44,712 nucleotides of DNA from Bacteroidales bacterium. GTDB lineage: Bacteria > Bacteroidota > Bacteroidia > Bacteroidales > UBA7960. The notes below the pieces were generated by a model. The model searched no databases, had not been told where the DNA came from, and saw only the letters and a list, made by a program, of their open reading frames with translations. The stretch lies in assembly GCA_003559475.1 (NCBI GenBank), contig PWLF01000268.1, forward strand, positions 1 through 44,712, given 5' to 3'. Position 1 is the first letter of the stretch. Each line of letters begins with the position of its first letter. Positions 5,595 through 44,461 of this stretch are shown piece by piece. Position numbers and translations under genes: made by a program.

Positions 5595-6425
5595 ATGGGA
5601 TGGTTTGGTCAAAAAAACAAGCTAAAGCAAGATGTTAATGTAAAACCTTTATGGGTAAATTGTAAAAACTGTAAATCTCATATATATGAAAGTGAATGGA
5701 TAGAAAATTTGTATGTTTGTCCTAATTGTAATTATCATGGCAATATCCCTTCTCAAAAGAGAATAAAGCTTTTGTTTGATAAAGGTAGTTATAAAGAGAT
5801 GTTCTCGGGTATTGGTCCGGTAGATACACTAAATTTTGTTGATTTAAAGGGTAGCTACAAGGATAAATTTGAGGCAAACAAGAAAAAGACCGGGTTTTCA
5901 GAGGCAGTTATTACAGGAAGAGGTAAGGTAAATGGCATTTCGATTGTTGCAGCAGTTATGGATTTTCGCTTTTTAGGGGGTAGTTTAGGTAGTGCTACAG
6001 GCGAAAAAATTCTTAGGGCTACAAATTATGCTTATGAAAAAAATATTCCTTTAATTATTTTTTCTGAATCAGGTGGTGCCAGAATGCAAGAAGGGGTATT
6101 GTCTTTGATGCAAATGGCTAAAACATGCAATGGAATTGCAAAACTTAATAAGAAAAATATACCGTATATTTCTGTATTAGCAAATCCCACAACAGGAGGC
6201 GTTACGGCAAGTTATGCCATGATGGGAGACATTAATATAGCTGAACCTTTTTCAGTTATCGGATTTGCAGGAAGAAGGGTAATAGAACAAACCATAGGAG
6301 AAAAATTACCTGACGATTTTCAAACTGCAGAATATCTGCTAAAGCATGGGTTTGTTGATTCAATAGTCAACAGAAAAGATATGAAAAACTACTTAAGTAA
6401 TGTTTTAAGCTTTTATAACAGGTAA
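5595..6425 (+). CDS. accD: Acetyl-CoA carboxylase carboxyltransferase subunit beta
   Basis: This 276-residue protein is AccD, which with AccA transfers the carboxyl group from carboxybiotin to acetyl-CoA to give malonyl-CoA for fatty acid synthesis in the cytoplasm. The N-terminal C4 zinc ribbon is intact (Cys23, Cys26, Cys42, Cys45). The crotonase-like carboxyltransferase fold shows the expected glycine-rich turns GGSLGSATGEK, SESGGARMQEG and NPTTGGVTASYA, followed by IGFAGRRVIEQT. Length is slightly short of the usual 280-300, and nothing essential appears lost. It is the first gene after a strong promoter and is followed 27 bases later by accA, then by a carboxyltransferase-biotin carrier fusion, so the three are very likely one operon. 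Confidence 0.95.
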   Translation: MGWFGQKNKLKQDVNVKPLWVNCKNCKSHIYESEWIENLYVCPNCNYHGNIPSQKRIKLLFDKGSYKEMFSGIGPVDTLNFVDLKGSYKDKFEANKKKTGFSEAVITGRGKVNGISIVAAVMDFRFLGGSLGSATGEKILRATNYAYEKNIPLIIFSESGGARMQEGVLSLMQMAKTCNGIAKLNKKNIPYISVLANPTTGGVTASYAMMGDINIAEPFSVIGFAGRRVIEQTIGEKLPDDFQTAEYLLKHGFVDSIVNRKDMKNYLSNVLSFYNR

Positions 6426-6452
6426 ATATTAAAAAATCAAAAGAAATTTATC

Positions 6453-7319
6453 ATGAGTAAAGACAGTATAACATTAACCGATAAAGAAAAAAAAACAGGC
6501 AATTCTTCTGCGAATAAAAGCACTAAAGCATGGGAAGTGGTTAAAATAAGTCGTCATCCCAACAGACCTGTTTTTAAGGATTATATTGAGTTAATTTTTG
6601 ATAATTTTATTGAGTTTCATGGCGATAGGTGTTATGCTGATGACCCTGCAATTTCAGGAGGATTCGCAGAAATTGATGGGAAAAAAATTATGTTGATAGG
6701 GCATTATAAAGGTAAAAATACTACAGAAAATATTGAAAGAAATTTTGGGATGGCTAAGCCGGAAGGTTATAGAAAAGCATTAAGATTGATGCGTTTGGCT
6801 GAAAGGTTTAATGTTCCAATAGTTACTCTCATAGATACTCCCGGAGCTTTCCCCGGAATTGAAGCCGAAGAAAGAGGGCAGGCAGAATCAATAGCGAAAA
6901 ATATCACAGAAATGGCAAAAATTGAAGTTCCGATAATTTCGTTGGTTATTGGTGAAGGAGGAAGTGGAGGAGCTCTCGGTATCGGTGTAGGAGATAAAAT
7001 TCTGATGCTTTCTAATTCTATATATTCGGTTATATCGCCTGAAGGATGCGCTTCAATATTATGGAGAGATTCTAAATATGCTGCAGATGCAGCTGAAGCT
7101 CTGAATATTACAGCTGATGCTCTTATAAAAATTGGAGTTATAGACGAAATAATTAAAGAACCTCCGGAAGGAGCTCATAATGATTACAAGAAAACAGCAG
7201 AAAATGTTAAAAAAGCACTCCTTAAAAATTTAAAGGTTTTGAATAAAATGTCGGAAGGAAAGTTATTGAAACACAGAAGCGAAAAATATTCAAATATTGG
7301 TAAGTATTCTTTAAAGTAG
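6453..7319 (+). CDS. accA: Acetyl-CoA carboxylase carboxyltransferase subunit alpha, short N-terminus
   Basis: This 288-residue protein is AccA, the partner of AccD. The carboxyltransferase core is well conserved: SRHPNRP, GDRCYADD, RNFGMAKPEGYRKALRL, DTPGAFPG, GEGGSGGALGIGVGD and SPEGCASILWRD. The usual protein is about 317 residues and begins with an alpha-helical hairpin of roughly 60 residues. Here the hairpin is replaced by about 28 polar residues rich in Lys, Ser and Thr. The ATG at 6453 is the natural start, because only 27 bases separate it from the accD stop. The next gene (7384) follows after 64 bases with no visible promoter or terminator between them. Confidence 0.94.
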   Translation: MSKDSITLTDKEKKTGNSSANKSTKAWEVVKISRHPNRPVFKDYIELIFDNFIEFHGDRCYADDPAISGGFAEIDGKKIMLIGHYKGKNTTENIERNFGMAKPEGYRKALRLMRLAERFNVPIVTLIDTPGAFPGIEAEERGQAESIAKNITEMAKIEVPIISLVIGEGGSGGALGIGVGDKILMLSNSIYSVISPEGCASILWRDSKYAADAAEALNITADALIKIGVIDEIIKEPPEGAHNDYKKTAENVKKALLKNLKVLNKMSEGKLLKHRSEKYSNIGKYSLK

Positions 7320-7383
7320 TAAATAAAATTTTTTTATCACTTAACTATCAATAAGTATTTATATAACCAAACGTTTTCATAAA

Positions 7384-9315
7384 ATGGCAAAAAAAGAGAA
7401 TATTTTAAGAATAACAGATACAACTCTTCGTGATGGTCACCAGTCATTATGGGCAACACGAATGAGAACAGATGATATGCTAAAAATCATTGATACTATA
7501 GATAATGTTGGATATTATTCATTGGAGGCATGGGGTGGAGCTACATTTGATGTATGTTTGAGATATTTGTATGAGGACCCGTGGGAAAGGCTAAAGCTTA
7601 TCAAATCTAAGGTAAAAAACACGCCTCTTCAAATGTTAATGAGAGGTCAAAATATAGTAGGATATAAGAATTATCCTGATGATCTTGTTGAGCGATTTGT
7701 TAAAATAGCTTGCAAAAACGGAATAGATATTTTTAGGGTTTTTGATGCTCTAAATGATTCAAGAAATCTTGAAACCGCAATAAAAGCAATAAAGAAAACA
7801 GGTGCTCATGCGCAAGGAACGCTTTCATATACTATAAGCCCTGTTCATACTATAAAAAAATACGTTGAGGATGCAAAAGCACAATATGATCTGGGAATAG
7901 ATTCTCTTTGTATAAAAGATATGGCAGGTTTGCTTTCGCCTGTGATGGCAAAAGAGCTGGTTTCAGCTCTAAAGAAAGAGTTAAAAATTCCAATTCAGGT
8001 TCACTGTCATTCTACCAGCGGAATGGCTTTTTCTGCTTATTTTGAGGCTGTTAAAGCGGGTGCGGGAGCAATTGACTGTGCTGTTTCTTCTTTGGCAGGA
8101 TTTTCATCACAACCACCGGTTGAAACGATGATAGCAATGTTTAATGAAACAGAGTATAAAACAAATCTTGATATTGAAGCTATTAGAAAGGTTAATCAAT
8201 ATTATACCCAATTGAGCCCAAAAAGATGTAAAGGAAGAAGTTTTGAGCCGATTGTTGATTCAGAAATATTAAGTCATCAGATACCGGGCGGTATGATATC
8301 AAACTTTAGATCACAACTTGAGCAACAAGATTCAATAGAAAAACTTCCTGAAGCACTTGAAGAAGTTGTTAAAGTAAGGAAAGATCTTGGTTACCCTCCT
8401 CTTGTTACTCCAACAAGCCAAATAGTTGGAACTCAGGCGGTTATGAATGTTTTAACAGGCGAAAGATATAAAATGGTGCCTCAAGAAGTAAAAAATTATG
8501 TCAAGGGTATGTATGGTCGCCCCCCTTCACCCATTGACCCTAAAATTATAAAAAAAATACTTGGGAAAGAAAAACCTTTAGATCATAGACCGGCTGATGA
8601 TATTAAACCAATATTGCCTAAAGCTACAAAAGGAATATCTAATCCGAAACTTGTTAAAAATGAAGAAGATATATTGTCATATTGTTTATTTCCGGAAGTA
8701 GCAATGGAGTTTTTCAAATGGAGAGAAACACCGGAAACGGACAGATTGGAAACACCCGCGGAAATTGAATGCAAAGAAATTGAAAAACTACATAGTACGG
8801 GGAAAGATGATGAAGAAATTAGAAAGCCATTATTAAATAATGAAGATTATGACGGAATTAATGAAATTATTGATAAAGCTGCAAAAATGCAACTAAATGA
8901 AATAATCATTAAAAAAGGAGATTTTAATTTGGCGTTAAAATCAAGCAATGGAAGTAACTCGGATATATCATCTTCTGTATCAAATTATCAAACTGAAGAG
9001 TTTTCATTTAAGCAAGGTAAGAAAGAACAAAAAACGGATAGGGTATCGGTAAAAGAAAAAGATATTAAGAAAAATACGGAAACTATAGATGCGGTTATGT
9101 CAGGAACATTTTATCGCTCTCCGGCAGTAGACAAACCTCCGTTTGCAGTTGAAGGCTCCGTAGTTAAGCAGGGAGATAAAATTTGTATTTTGGAAGCTAT
9201 GAAGCTTTTTAATGAAATAGAATCGCCGTTTAAATGTAAAATAATTAAATTTTTAATTGATGATGGCGATAAAGTAACAAAGGGGCAACCTATTATGACT
9301 ATTGAAAAAATTTAG
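7384..9315 (+). CDS. Fusion of OadA/PycB-type carboxyltransferase with AccB-like biotin carrier
   Basis: This 643-residue protein has an HMGL-like TIM barrel (about 8-270) with RDGHQS at 16-21, a metal-ligand lysine in IKDMAGL (Lys178) and the His207/His209 pair in HCHSTSG, where Thr211 matches the catalytic threonine of pyruvate carboxylase. A conserved carboxylase (PYC_OADA) domain follows (about 290-460, with PGGMISNFRSQL). The C-terminal part is not the usual OadA biotinyl domain. It resembles acetyl-CoA carboxylase AccB: an AccB-like start near 485-520 (LNEIIIKKGDFNLAL), a charged linker, then SGTFYRSP (573-580) and EAMKLFNEIES with biotinyl Lys607. The family reaction is carboxyl transfer between carboxybiotin and pyruvate or oxaloacetate. 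Position after accD-accA suggests the same carrier may serve both reactions. Domain assignment is firm; the net reaction is inferred. Confidence 0.88.
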   Translation: MAKKENILRITDTTLRDGHQSLWATRMRTDDMLKIIDTIDNVGYYSLEAWGGATFDVCLRYLYEDPWERLKLIKSKVKNTPLQMLMRGQNIVGYKNYPDDLVERFVKIACKNGIDIFRVFDALNDSRNLETAIKAIKKTGAHAQGTLSYTISPVHTIKKYVEDAKAQYDLGIDSLCIKDMAGLLSPVMAKELVSALKKELKIPIQVHCHSTSGMAFSAYFEAVKAGAGAIDCAVSSLAGFSSQPPVETMIAMFNETEYKTNLDIEAIRKVNQYYTQLSPKRCKGRSFEPIVDSEILSHQIPGGMISNFRSQLEQQDSIEKLPEALEEVVKVRKDLGYPPLVTPTSQIVGTQAVMNVLTGERYKMVPQEVKNYVKGMYGRPPSPIDPKIIKKILGKEKPLDHRPADDIKPILPKATKGISNPKLVKNEEDILSYCLFPEVAMEFFKWRETPETDRLETPAEIECKEIEKLHSTGKDDEEIRKPLLNNEDYDGINEIIDKAAKMQLNEIIIKKGDFNLALKSSNGSNSDISSSVSNYQTEEFSFKQGKKEQKTDRVSVKEKDIKKNTETIDAVMSGTFYRSPAVDKPPFAVEGSVVKQGDKICILEAMKLFNEIESPFKCKIIKFLIDDGDKVTKGQPIMTIEKI

Positions 9316-42973: not shown

Positions 42974-44431
42974 TTATTGTTTTACTTTATCAACAGCATT
43001 TTTTATAGCATCATTAATAATTTCATCAGGGGGTTGTTTTATAAATCCGCCATCTACAAGTGCTTTAGTTGATTCTCTGGCATTTTTTATATCAGCTGAT
43101 GCCCAGTCATAAGCTTCTTGCCATGTAAGTTTTTTCCTGGCAACGCCATCTTCAATAGCTTGCATTGCAACGTCAGCGGCTTCAAACGGAAAAACTTCAG
43201 ATTCATCCATTTTAGCTATGATATCATCATGAGTTATTCCTCTTTTTTCCGAAAATTTTGCAATAGATTTTGCAGCTGCAATAGCCATATTGTCAGTAAT
43301 TTTAGTAGCCCTAGCCATTAAAGTTCCTTTTAATATTCCGGGGAAGCCAACAGAGTTGTTTACTTGATTTGGGAAATCTCCTCTTCCTGTTGCGACAATT
43401 TTTGCTCCTGCTTCTTTTGCGGCATAAGGATATATTTCAGGCACAGGGTTAGCACAAACAAATACAATAGGGTCTTTTGCCATGGATTTTATCCATTCAG
43501 GCTTGACAACATCAGGTCCCGGTTTTGCCATAGATATCAATACATCGGCTCCTTTCATAGCTTCTTCAATGTCATTAATATTATCCGGATTTGTAGCTTC
43601 GCAAAGCTCCCATTTTCTATAAAATCTTTTGTCTTTTTTGATATCCTCGCGATTTTTATGAAGGCCACCTTTTGAGTCAAACATTATTGTTTTAGTCGGG
43701 TCAGCTCCGTATGCATTAATAACTCTTGCGATGGTTGCATTTGCTGCGCCTGCACCGTAATATACAATTTTAACATCTTCGATTTTCTTGTCTACCAACT
43801 TTAAAGCATTAATAAGACCTGCTAAAGTTACACAAGCAGTCCCTTGAGCATCATCGTGCCAAACAGGAATAGAGCATTCTTCTTGCAAAACATCTAATAC
43901 TTTGTAGCAGTTTGGTTGTGAAATATCTTCAAGGTTTATCGCTCCATAACTGTGTTGTGACATTTTAACAAACTCAATTAGTTTGTCAGGATCATTCTCC
44001 CCTTTTTCATTTTTGCTGTCAACGCAAACAGCAATCCCATCAACTCCTCCAAGATATTTCATAAGAAAAGCTTTTCCTTCCATTACACCCATTCCTCCCG
44101 GAGGTGTGCAATCACCATCACCTAAAACTCTTGTTTAATCACTGACTACAGCAACTAGATTTCCTCTGTTTGATAATTCAAATGACGTGTCATTATTGTC
44201 TCGAATGCTAGTAGATATGTTAGAAACTCCCGGAGTGTACCATGCATTAAACCAATTAAAACCTAAAACAGGAGCTTTTGGTAATGTTTGCATTTTTCCT
44301 CCATAAAACTTATGCGCTTTTAATGCTAACTCTTTGTAAAATAGCGTTTTAGCTTTAGCTTTTTGTTCCTGAGTAAGATCATCAGGCAATAAAGAATCTA
44401 GATTTTCGAGAGCGAGATTATTTTTTTTCAT
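42974..44431 (-). pseudogene. Malic enzyme gene with an in-frame stop at codon 99
   Basis: The 486-codon frame encodes a malic enzyme (malate to pyruvate and CO2, with NAD or NADP), but codon 99 is TAA (44135-44137). The frame continues on both sides without a shift: VVSD, stop, TRVLGDGDCTPPGG, then MGVMEGKAFLMKYLGG. Relatives have a Ser or Gly codon here; one change from TCA would give TAA. Upstream parts hold HKFYGGK and WYTPGV with the catalytic tyrosine. Downstream parts hold the catalytic lysine region (GKAFLMKYLGG), VWHDDAQGTA, the Rossmann motif YYGAGAANATI and ATGRGDFPNQVNNSVGFPG. A restart at the ATG at 44092 would omit the tyrosine. Apart from the stop everything is intact, so a recent mutation, a base-calling error or readthrough are all possible. 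I call it interrupted, not decayed. Confidence 0.85.
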
Positions 44432-44461
44432 GTTTAAATAAATTTAAAGTTAAACAATTGA

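Follow-up and report, generated by a model that had tools for sequence, protein, structure and literature searches.

Bacterial fatty acid synthesis is taken to begin with acetyl-CoA carboxylase, whose reaction is the committed step and spends ATP; the enzyme is also regarded as an antibiotic target. The methylmalonyl-CoA carboxytransferase of propionibacteria comprises 12S, 1.3S and 5S components and contains no biotin carboxylase (BC). King Jordan et al. (2003) reportedly predicted a transcarboxylase in Giardia intestinalis and proposed for it the same reaction as that considered here for a bacterial operon. The Giardia enzyme reportedly resembles the operon in combining acetyl-CoA-type and pyruvate-type carboxyltransferases with a biotin carrier in the absence of a BC, and this predicted enzyme may serve as a precedent, the likeness being drawn from descriptions. 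It differs in being one large eukaryotic protein, whereas the bacterial unit is a three-gene operon with heteromeric AccD and AccA and with AccB fused to PycB. One account gives the Giardia protein a length of 1338 aa, in which a carrier domain accompanies the joined ACC and PC parts (PMC8700996).

The operon occupies positions 5595-9315 of the window, the whole stretch of 44,712 nucleotides that was analysed, which derives from a Bacteroidales bacterium. Judged from its sequence, the operon probably (probability of about 0.7) encodes an ATP-independent acetyl-CoA:oxaloacetate carboxytransferase that would supply malonyl-CoA for fatty acid synthesis. A literature search by titles and abstract openings, mainly outside subscription journals, revealed no bacterial AccDA-PycB::AccB transcarboxylase. 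The features of the locus are:

5595..6425, plus strand: accD, acetyl-CoA carboxyltransferase beta subunit, 276 aa (TIGR00515 profile)
6453..7319, plus strand: accA, acetyl-CoA carboxyltransferase alpha subunit, 288 aa (PRK05724 profile)
7384..9315, plus strand: pycB::accB fusion, 643 aa (PRK09282; TIGR00531 at residues 491-642)
7384..8763, plus strand: PycB/OadA-type carboxyltransferase domain, residues 1-460 (HMGL-like and PYC_OADA domains)
7432..8010, plus strand: stretch with the metal-site residues D17, K178, H207 and H209 (aligned to chain 2nx9_A)
8854..9309, plus strand: full-length AccB-type carrier (TIGR00531 positions 5-156; AccB grouping in the carrier tree)
9202..9204, plus strand: codon of the biotin-accepting Lys607 (EAMK, kept in 32/32)

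Like the propionibacterial transcarboxylase, the locus joins a 5S-type carboxyltransferase (432.5 bits with chain 1rqb_A), a carrier and a CoA-ester carboxyltransferase in an operon without BC; it differs in having AccD-AccA rather than 12S, a full AccB rather than 1.3S, fused to the 5S-type half, and acetyl-CoA as the predicted acceptor. AccA and AccD are shared with heteromeric AccABCD, and a carrier that matches AccB over its full length is present; AccC is neither in the operon nor found in the genome, and the AccB-type carrier forms the C-terminal part of PycB, with a score below the model cut-off. The two-subunit pyruvate carboxylase (PycA and PycB) likewise has a PycB with a C-terminal carrier, and the Na+-pumping oxaloacetate decarboxylase (OadA-OadG-OadB) an OadA-type carboxyltransferase with carrier. 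In contrast to this pump, the window operon contains no detected OadB or OadG, its carrier is of AccB type, and the fusion scores 708.2 bits against TIGR01108, under the cut-off of 756.5. A Bacillota pycB::accB-accC operon also has this PycB-AccB fusion, at 51% identity in Ammonifex, with accC directly behind it; the window has accD-accA in place of this accC.

The three genes are separated by 27 bp (accD-accA) and 64 bp (accA-pycB::accB). The initial annotation had read them as AccD, AccA and an OadA/PycB-type enzyme with an AccB-like carrier, and profile scores confirmed all three: AccD reached 366.7 bits against TIGR00515 (curated cut-off 317.45), AccA 433.7 bits against PRK05724 (curated cut-off 357) and the fusion 802.1 bits against PRK09282 (PycB; cut-off 402). 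The zinc-ribbon cysteines 23, 26, 42 and 45 of AccD are all kept in 30/30 aligned AccD sequences; the AccD sequence of G215 includes a run of N. Motifs GEGGSGGAL and SPEGCA of AccA are kept in 32/32 aligned proteins, and alignments reveal an AccA N-terminus ~31-40 residues shorter than in AccA of E. coli and S. aureus.

The solved chains nearest to the carboxyltransferase domain of the fusion are 5ks8_C, 2nx9_A and 1rqb_A. Residues D17, K178, H207 and H209, the metal-site residues with a catalytic role in OadA, are at the same positions as in 2nx9_A, and each is kept in 32/32 aligned proteins. Orthologues of the fusion in the window's family are full-length in 16 other genomes, with 62-75% identity, and two more are cut by contig ends. 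A PycB tree of the "quick" kind, which kept 68 of 77 rows (five "other" and four "5S" rows were left out), unites the window clade with the Bacillota fusions at 90%, at a fork that holds two long branches.

Residues 491-642 of the fusion correspond to positions 5-156 of the 156 positions of TIGR00531, with 92.5 bits, under the cut-off of 115.2. This extent means that the carrier spans the entire AccB, N-terminal region included, beyond a mere biotinyl domain. SGTFYRSP, EAMKLFNEIES and Lys607 are present as that annotation had claimed, and Lys607 is kept in 32/32 aligned proteins. On the AccB model the fused carriers score 91-114 bits (18 proteins including that of the window; two more at 105 and 108), and one scanned Bacillota cousin with adjoining accC scores 163 bits. 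The carrier tree places the fused carrier with AccB (100/96 split) and apart from carriers of the PCC, MCC, Mmd and 5S types and from the few OadA-type ones included. The motif filter used for this tree dropped four of six OadB-partnered carriers, the AccB-like ORFs of L227, L228, L229, L231 and L232, and a few Mmd and 117-aa-type carriers. The separation of AccB plus Bacillota from the window clade, based on few columns, is weakly supported (88/44). Contig-cut fusion proteins of G217, G228 and G245 (3/35) were left out of the trees. AccB-type carriers are also found on OadA-like proteins adjoining OadB and, in Bacillota, adjoining accC; the carrier type alone is thus no proof of malonyl-CoA synthesis, and it was rejected as proof of acetyl-CoA use.

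Window-type pycB is present in 35 genomes, and accD, accA and pycB lie together on one strand in 30 of these. In G228, one of the 30, the contig stops ahead of the carrier part, and in the remaining five genomes the contig stops before accD or accA. These counts treat 15 of 60 loci, on contigs equal in length to contigs already included, as duplicates of the latter, each counted once. Together, the profile scores and the gene order conserved in other genomes exclude a chance arrangement. Neighbourhood genes were identified by BLASTP only, with 18 biotin-enzyme proteins and the other ORFs of the window as references, and no BC gene was found in any operon neighbourhood examined. Of the 35 genomes in the window's family, 18 have AccA at E below 1e-50, and all 18 bear the fusion (18/19 fusion genomes, 0/16 others); the sole family fusion genome without AccA is G217, whose contig begins inside the fusion. 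No AccB-model match above the cut-off was found in the 35 family genomes, which would leave AccDA without an ordinary AccB partner.

The initial annotation had noted that AccC was absent from the window and might be encoded elsewhere. A genome-wide search also gave none in the window's genome, which is 93.8% complete: PF02786 and TIGR00514, with E values up to 10, matched only two other ATP-grasp proteins, presumably PurD and Ddl judging from their ORFs, and an AccC overlooked by the search was therefore rejected. The same genome has three biotin carriers, and neither a free AccB nor PycA, the BC partner of two-subunit pyruvate carboxylase, was found in it. The initial annotation had itself set two genomic findings against its proposal, a separate accB with accC and a carrier that groups with those of OadA; neither gene was detected in the window's genome, and the carrier instead grouped with AccB. 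At completeness values of 93.8% and 89%, a BC of this genome or of G198, respectively, could lie in a gap.

The locus thus comprises two carboxyltransferases and a carrier with conserved residues, the carrier being of AccB type, in a conserved three-gene unit. We infer the substrates and the direction of the reaction as follows. In a complex of the three proteins, the PycB half would convert oxaloacetate to pyruvate and load the carboxyl group onto biotin, presumably attached at Lys607 of the AccB part fused to it. Carboxybiotin would then swing to the AccD-AccA site, where acetyl-CoA would be converted to malonyl-CoA for fatty acid synthesis, giving the net reaction oxaloacetate + acetyl-CoA -> pyruvate + malonyl-CoA without ATP. 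That one carrier could link both halves in this way had been suggested initially, and the suggestion gains support from the conserved synteny, from the restriction of AccA to fusion genomes within the family and from the genomes without BC.

Alternatively, ATP-dependent carboxylation of the fused AccB might be performed in trans by a PCC-type (or MccA-like) BC; acetyl-CoA carboxylase and pyruvate carboxylase would then share one carrier. BC sharing between carboxyltransferases is known in other systems. A stand-alone, PCC-type BC is encoded by 26 of the 35 fusion genomes, five have only a long MccA-like BC and four (G000, G198, G231 and G233) have no BC. The same-genus relatives G199 and G200 carry their BC inside a PCC-type operon; a clade-wide lack of AccC was hence rejected, and the claim is narrowed to an operon without its own BC gene. 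Within the family, stand-alone BC is missing in 6/19 fusion genomes versus 3/16 genomes without the fusion (none in G201, a contig-edge fragment only in G213 and G227), so that its absence is not tied to the fusion and fits assembly gaps equally well. The accC right behind the same fusion in the Bacillota cousins also favours a BC acting on this carrier. However, one of the four fusion genomes without any BC, G233, is well assembled (50-59 contigs, the largest seen being 1.45, 0.77 and 0.50 Mb), and the stand-alone BC adjoins its own carrier and/or PccB in 25/26 genomes, the contig of G219 ending inside BC. The fused carrier, moreover, deviates at nine columns, chosen after the fact, that are conserved in 13 rows of AccC-served carriers. 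On balance, a shared BC appears unlikely.

Two further readings retain the proteins and change their roles. The halves could be uncoupled: PycB::AccB would be a subunit of an oxaloacetate decarboxylase or of a pyruvate carboxylase, and AccD-AccA would draw carboxybiotin from another carrier. Such a role would agree with the OadA-like proteins with an AccB-like carrier that adjoin OadB in 7/20 neighbourhoods from AccC-less genomes (one OadB being cut by a contig end) and with the OadB of the window's genome, which sits with an OadG-like ORF and MmdA on contig C224. The operon neighbourhoods themselves gave no match to the OadB and OadG references, and an OadA/OadB pump was rejected for the window operon because no OadB is nearby; the confinement of AccA to fusion genomes and the lack of an above-cut-off AccB in the family also speak against uncoupling, for which we see a slim chance. 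A transcarboxylase of the same build might also use another acyl-CoA, such as propionyl-CoA, or run in reverse, from malonyl-CoA and pyruvate to oxaloacetate. Transcarboxylation is a near-equilibrium reaction, and MmdA-type enzymes are also encoded in the genome. Those enzymes, however, would already handle other acyl-CoAs, and AccD and AccA, which exceed their acetyl-CoA carboxylase cut-offs, score far lower on the MmdA model; this reading is highly improbable.

If the acetyl-CoA:oxaloacetate carboxytransferase is real, it would give bacteria a way to malonyl-CoA in which a keto-acid carboxyltransferase takes the place of the ATP-using subunit. One ATP would be saved per malonyl-CoA when PEP carboxykinase supplies the oxaloacetate, lipid synthesis would be tied directly to the PEP-pyruvate-oxaloacetate node, and the operon would offer a ready-made engineering part. 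Across the order, 74 of 198 genomes were classed as AccC-less by eye (best E above 1e-30), 63 of the 74 having a completeness of 90% or more and a contamination of 5% or less, and 72 of the 74 also lack true AccA. The window operon is therefore not the sole way of living without BC, and its use by all AccC-less relatives was rejected; the 72/198 genomes with neither AccC nor true AccA pose a testable question as to the source of their malonyl-CoA. There is perhaps an even chance that some anaerobic Bacteroidota, and a Spirochaete, dropped the ATP-dependent acetyl-CoA carboxylase, the operon having arisen by PycB-AccB fusion and exchange of accC for accDA with malonyl-CoA made only from oxaloacetate, and that the many BC-less Bacteroidales would all supply fatty acid synthesis by transcarboxylation, storing carboxyl groups in oxaloacetate made by PEP carboxykinase.

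A promoter scan gave no more matches than shuffled sequences, and terminator-like sites numbered four versus a mean of 1.9. The flanks of loci L177 and L223 yielded two matches to large secreted proteins of the window, at 30-32% identity.

The three genes lie on the forward strand of the window and encode the following proteins:

5595-6425, + strand: accD, 276 aa, above the NCBIfam acetyl-CoA carboxylase cut-off
6453-7319, + strand: accA, 288 aa, above the NCBIfam acetyl-CoA carboxylase cut-off
7384-9315, + strand: pycB::accB fusion, 643 aa, 802.1 bits on the PycB model PRK09282

The genes are separated by 27 bp (accD/accA) and 64 bp (accA/fusion), and the nearest long ORFs on both sides lie on the opposite strand, so that accD, accA and pycB look like a single unit. 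Residues 491-642 of the fusion match AccB-model positions 5-156 of 156 (92.5 bits, below the 115.2 cut-off); a whole AccB, including its N-terminal part, is thus predicted to be fused to a pyruvate/oxaloacetate-type carboxyltransferase. The NCBIfam scores and the AccB-model match bear out the initial annotation of AccD, AccA and a 643-residue OadA/PycB-type enzyme with an AccB-like carrier.

The operon is built like a transcarboxylase, the activity being predicted from its domains. The most economical reading, with a probability of about 0.7, is an acetyl-CoA:oxaloacetate carboxytransferase, in which PycB would convert oxaloacetate and biotin-AccB to pyruvate and carboxybiotin, and AccDA would use carboxybiotin and acetyl-CoA to form malonyl-CoA. 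PEP carboxykinase conserves ATP when making oxaloacetate, and one ATP would be saved per malonyl-CoA if this enzyme is the supplier. The mechanism would resemble that of the propionibacterial transcarboxylase, in which 12S and 1.3S take the places of AccDA and AccB. The predicted Giardia transcarboxylase combines acetyl-CoA and pyruvate carboxylase parts with a carrier domain in a single 1338-aa protein (PMC8700996), in contrast to the three genes of the operon. No bacterial AccDA-based transcarboxylase was found in the literature searched.

Among the other members of the window's family, 16 genomes encode full-length fusion orthologues (62-75% identity) and two encode orthologues truncated by contig ends. 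A scan of named genomes returned 60 loci, including 16 additional fusion genomes (15 Bacteroidota, judged by title, and one Spirochaete), bringing the genomes with this pycB to 35. In 30 of them accD, accA and pycB stand side by side in the same orientation; among these is G228, whose contig breaks off ahead of the carrier part. In the remaining five (G205, G226, G217, G242 and G245) the contig runs out before accD or accA is reached. A 136-aa ORF separates accA from the fusion in G206. BLASTP against a small reference set revealed no biotin carboxylase (BC) beside the operon, and no other recurrent neighbour from that set, in the neighbourhoods taken. Within the family, of which 35 genomes were searched, AccA (E < 1e-50) was found in 18, every one a fusion genome, and in 0 of the 16 that lack the fusion. 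The one remaining fusion genome, G217 (the nineteenth), gave no AccA, its contig starting inside the fusion. No AccB above the cut-off was detected in the 35 family genomes.

Residues D17, K178, H207 and H209 of the fusion align with the same-numbered residues of OadA chain 2nx9_A, where they serve in catalysis. These residues, and the EAMK motif with Lys607, are invariant in 32/32 fusion proteins. Four cysteines of AccD are conserved in 30/30 sequences, and GEGGSGGAL and SPEGCA of AccA in 32/32. Alignment of the clade's AccA to the AccA model begins only at about position 15-52 (at least 85 where a contig end cuts the protein), and compared with two solved AccA chains the window's AccA starts 31-40 residues further in; another solved chain, 9m70_B, is also short (273 aa), so the short form is not unique to this clade.

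The assembly to which the window belongs, as contig C272, spans 3.18 Mb (298 contigs, 93.8% complete) and contains only three biotin carriers (PF00364, E <= 0.001): the fusion, a 149-aa protein on contig C224 within an MmdA-OadG-like-carrier-OadB operon, and a 117-aa protein on contig C287 behind a second MmdA. Contig C287 also encodes a carrier-less PycB-type protein of 584 aa; together with the second MmdA and the 117-aa carrier it falls within 9 kb (locus L153, 3847-5846 and 10784-12538), a set reminiscent of the propionibacterial transcarboxylase parts. No BC was found in this genome (PF02786; TIGR00514 to E = 10), the only two other proteins matched (34.6 and 17.5 bits on TIGR00514) being, as we read their ORFs, PurD and a D-Ala-D-Ala ligase. 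The initial annotation had left room for an AccC outside the window; this assembly shows none, and the operon falls outside the AccABCD definition because AccC is lacking.

The main alternative, which we regard as unlikely, is that a BC is shared in trans wherever a PCC-type BC exists. In 26 of the 35 fusion genomes there is a stand-alone BC (about 500 aa), accompanied by its own carrier and/or PccB gene in 25 (in G219 the contig ends inside the BC). The 26 include G199 and G200, of the same genus as the window's genome, so the BC missing from the latter could be an assembly gap. Five fusion genomes have only longer BC proteins: in G212, G214, G217 and G228 the open frame spans about 650-680 aa, with an MccB-type gene adjoining in the three neighbourhoods viewed, while the Spirochaete G244 has a 671-aa protein and a match within a 1954-aa frame. 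A control inside the family speaks against the carboxytransferase reading: a whole stand-alone BC is missing from 6/19 fusion versus 3/16 non-fusion genomes (G201 has no BC; G213 and G227 have only contig-edge fragments), and BC loss is thus not shown to accompany the fusion there. A shared BC cannot apply to genomes without any, provided the absence is real, and no BC was found in four of the 35 fusion genomes: the window's genome, G198 (only 89% complete), G231 and G233. A gap is less likely to hide a BC in G233, which is well assembled (50-59 contigs in 4.8 Mb, of which the three longest observed measure 1.45, 0.77 and 0.50 Mb).

In a carboxyltransferase-domain tree (68 rows, quick method), the 32 fusion rows form one clade (support 100), in which the Spirochaete RBG_16_49_21 branches off first; the closest rows outside this clade belong to Bacillota proteins and to two unfused PycB on long branches (fork 90). 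Seven Bacillota loci carry the same fusion directly followed by accC (448-470 aa), with no accD or accA found in the flanks examined; they (L203-L208 and L224) include Desulforadius tongensis, Ammonifex thiophilus strains and Desulfotomaculum. This pair would make up a pyruvate carboxylase whose carrier is a true AccB, one perhaps shared with acetyl-CoA carboxylase. A tree of the carriers, built from 85 rows and 87 columns, places those of the clade with free AccB and Bacillota fused AccB, apart from PCC, MCC, Mmd, 5S-type and a few OadA/PycB-type carriers (100/96), in agreement with the AccB-like motifs of the initial annotation; the AccB side also takes in two carriers from other Bacteroidales that are partnered with OadB. 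It is likely that a pyruvate carboxylase of the pycB::accB-accC type lost accC and gained accDA. Nine carrier columns, chosen after the fact, are invariant or almost invariant across 13 AccC-served rows (seven Bacillota fused, five free AccB, two of them the same protein, and E. coli) and hold other residues in the fusion clade, for example Gly to Cys in 31/32 and Glu/Asp to Pro in 30/32. Against the AccB model the Ammonifex carrier reaches 163 bits, versus 91-114 for the fusion clade (18 rows), with two more at 105 and 108. This divergence fits a release from AccC, although drift of other cause would look alike.

At the order level, selection by eye picked out 74 of 198 genomes whose best AccC-like match, if any, did not pass E = 1e-30, and BC absence is thus common. 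A true AccA occurs among these 74 only in the window's genome and G044 (433 and 488 bits; next best 58.8), and G044 may have a gap since its family mate G155 has AccC. The other 72, which have neither AccC-type BC nor true AccA, show MmdA/PccB-type matches only, so that the accD-accA-pycB operon is one among several arrangements; no AccB exceeded the cut-off in the 74. In two AccC-less genomes, G015 (locus L152) and G096 (locus L273), a PccB/MmdA-type gene directly precedes one for PycB::carrier (41-42% against the window), possibly a second transcarboxylase, made of two genes. At L264-L270, seven of the 20 neighbourhoods taken from AccC-less genomes, a divergent OadA-like protein of Bacteroidales (~28% identity) whose carrier most resembles AccB adjoins OadB (truncated at the end of the contig in L266), in a sodium-pump-like pair. 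Elsewhere in the window, a malic enzyme gene (42974-44443, - strand) is apparently split by one in-frame stop codon, either a sequencing error or a sign of a pseudogene, into adjoining same-frame open frames at 44135-44443 and 42974-44134, the second providing the Pfam basis.
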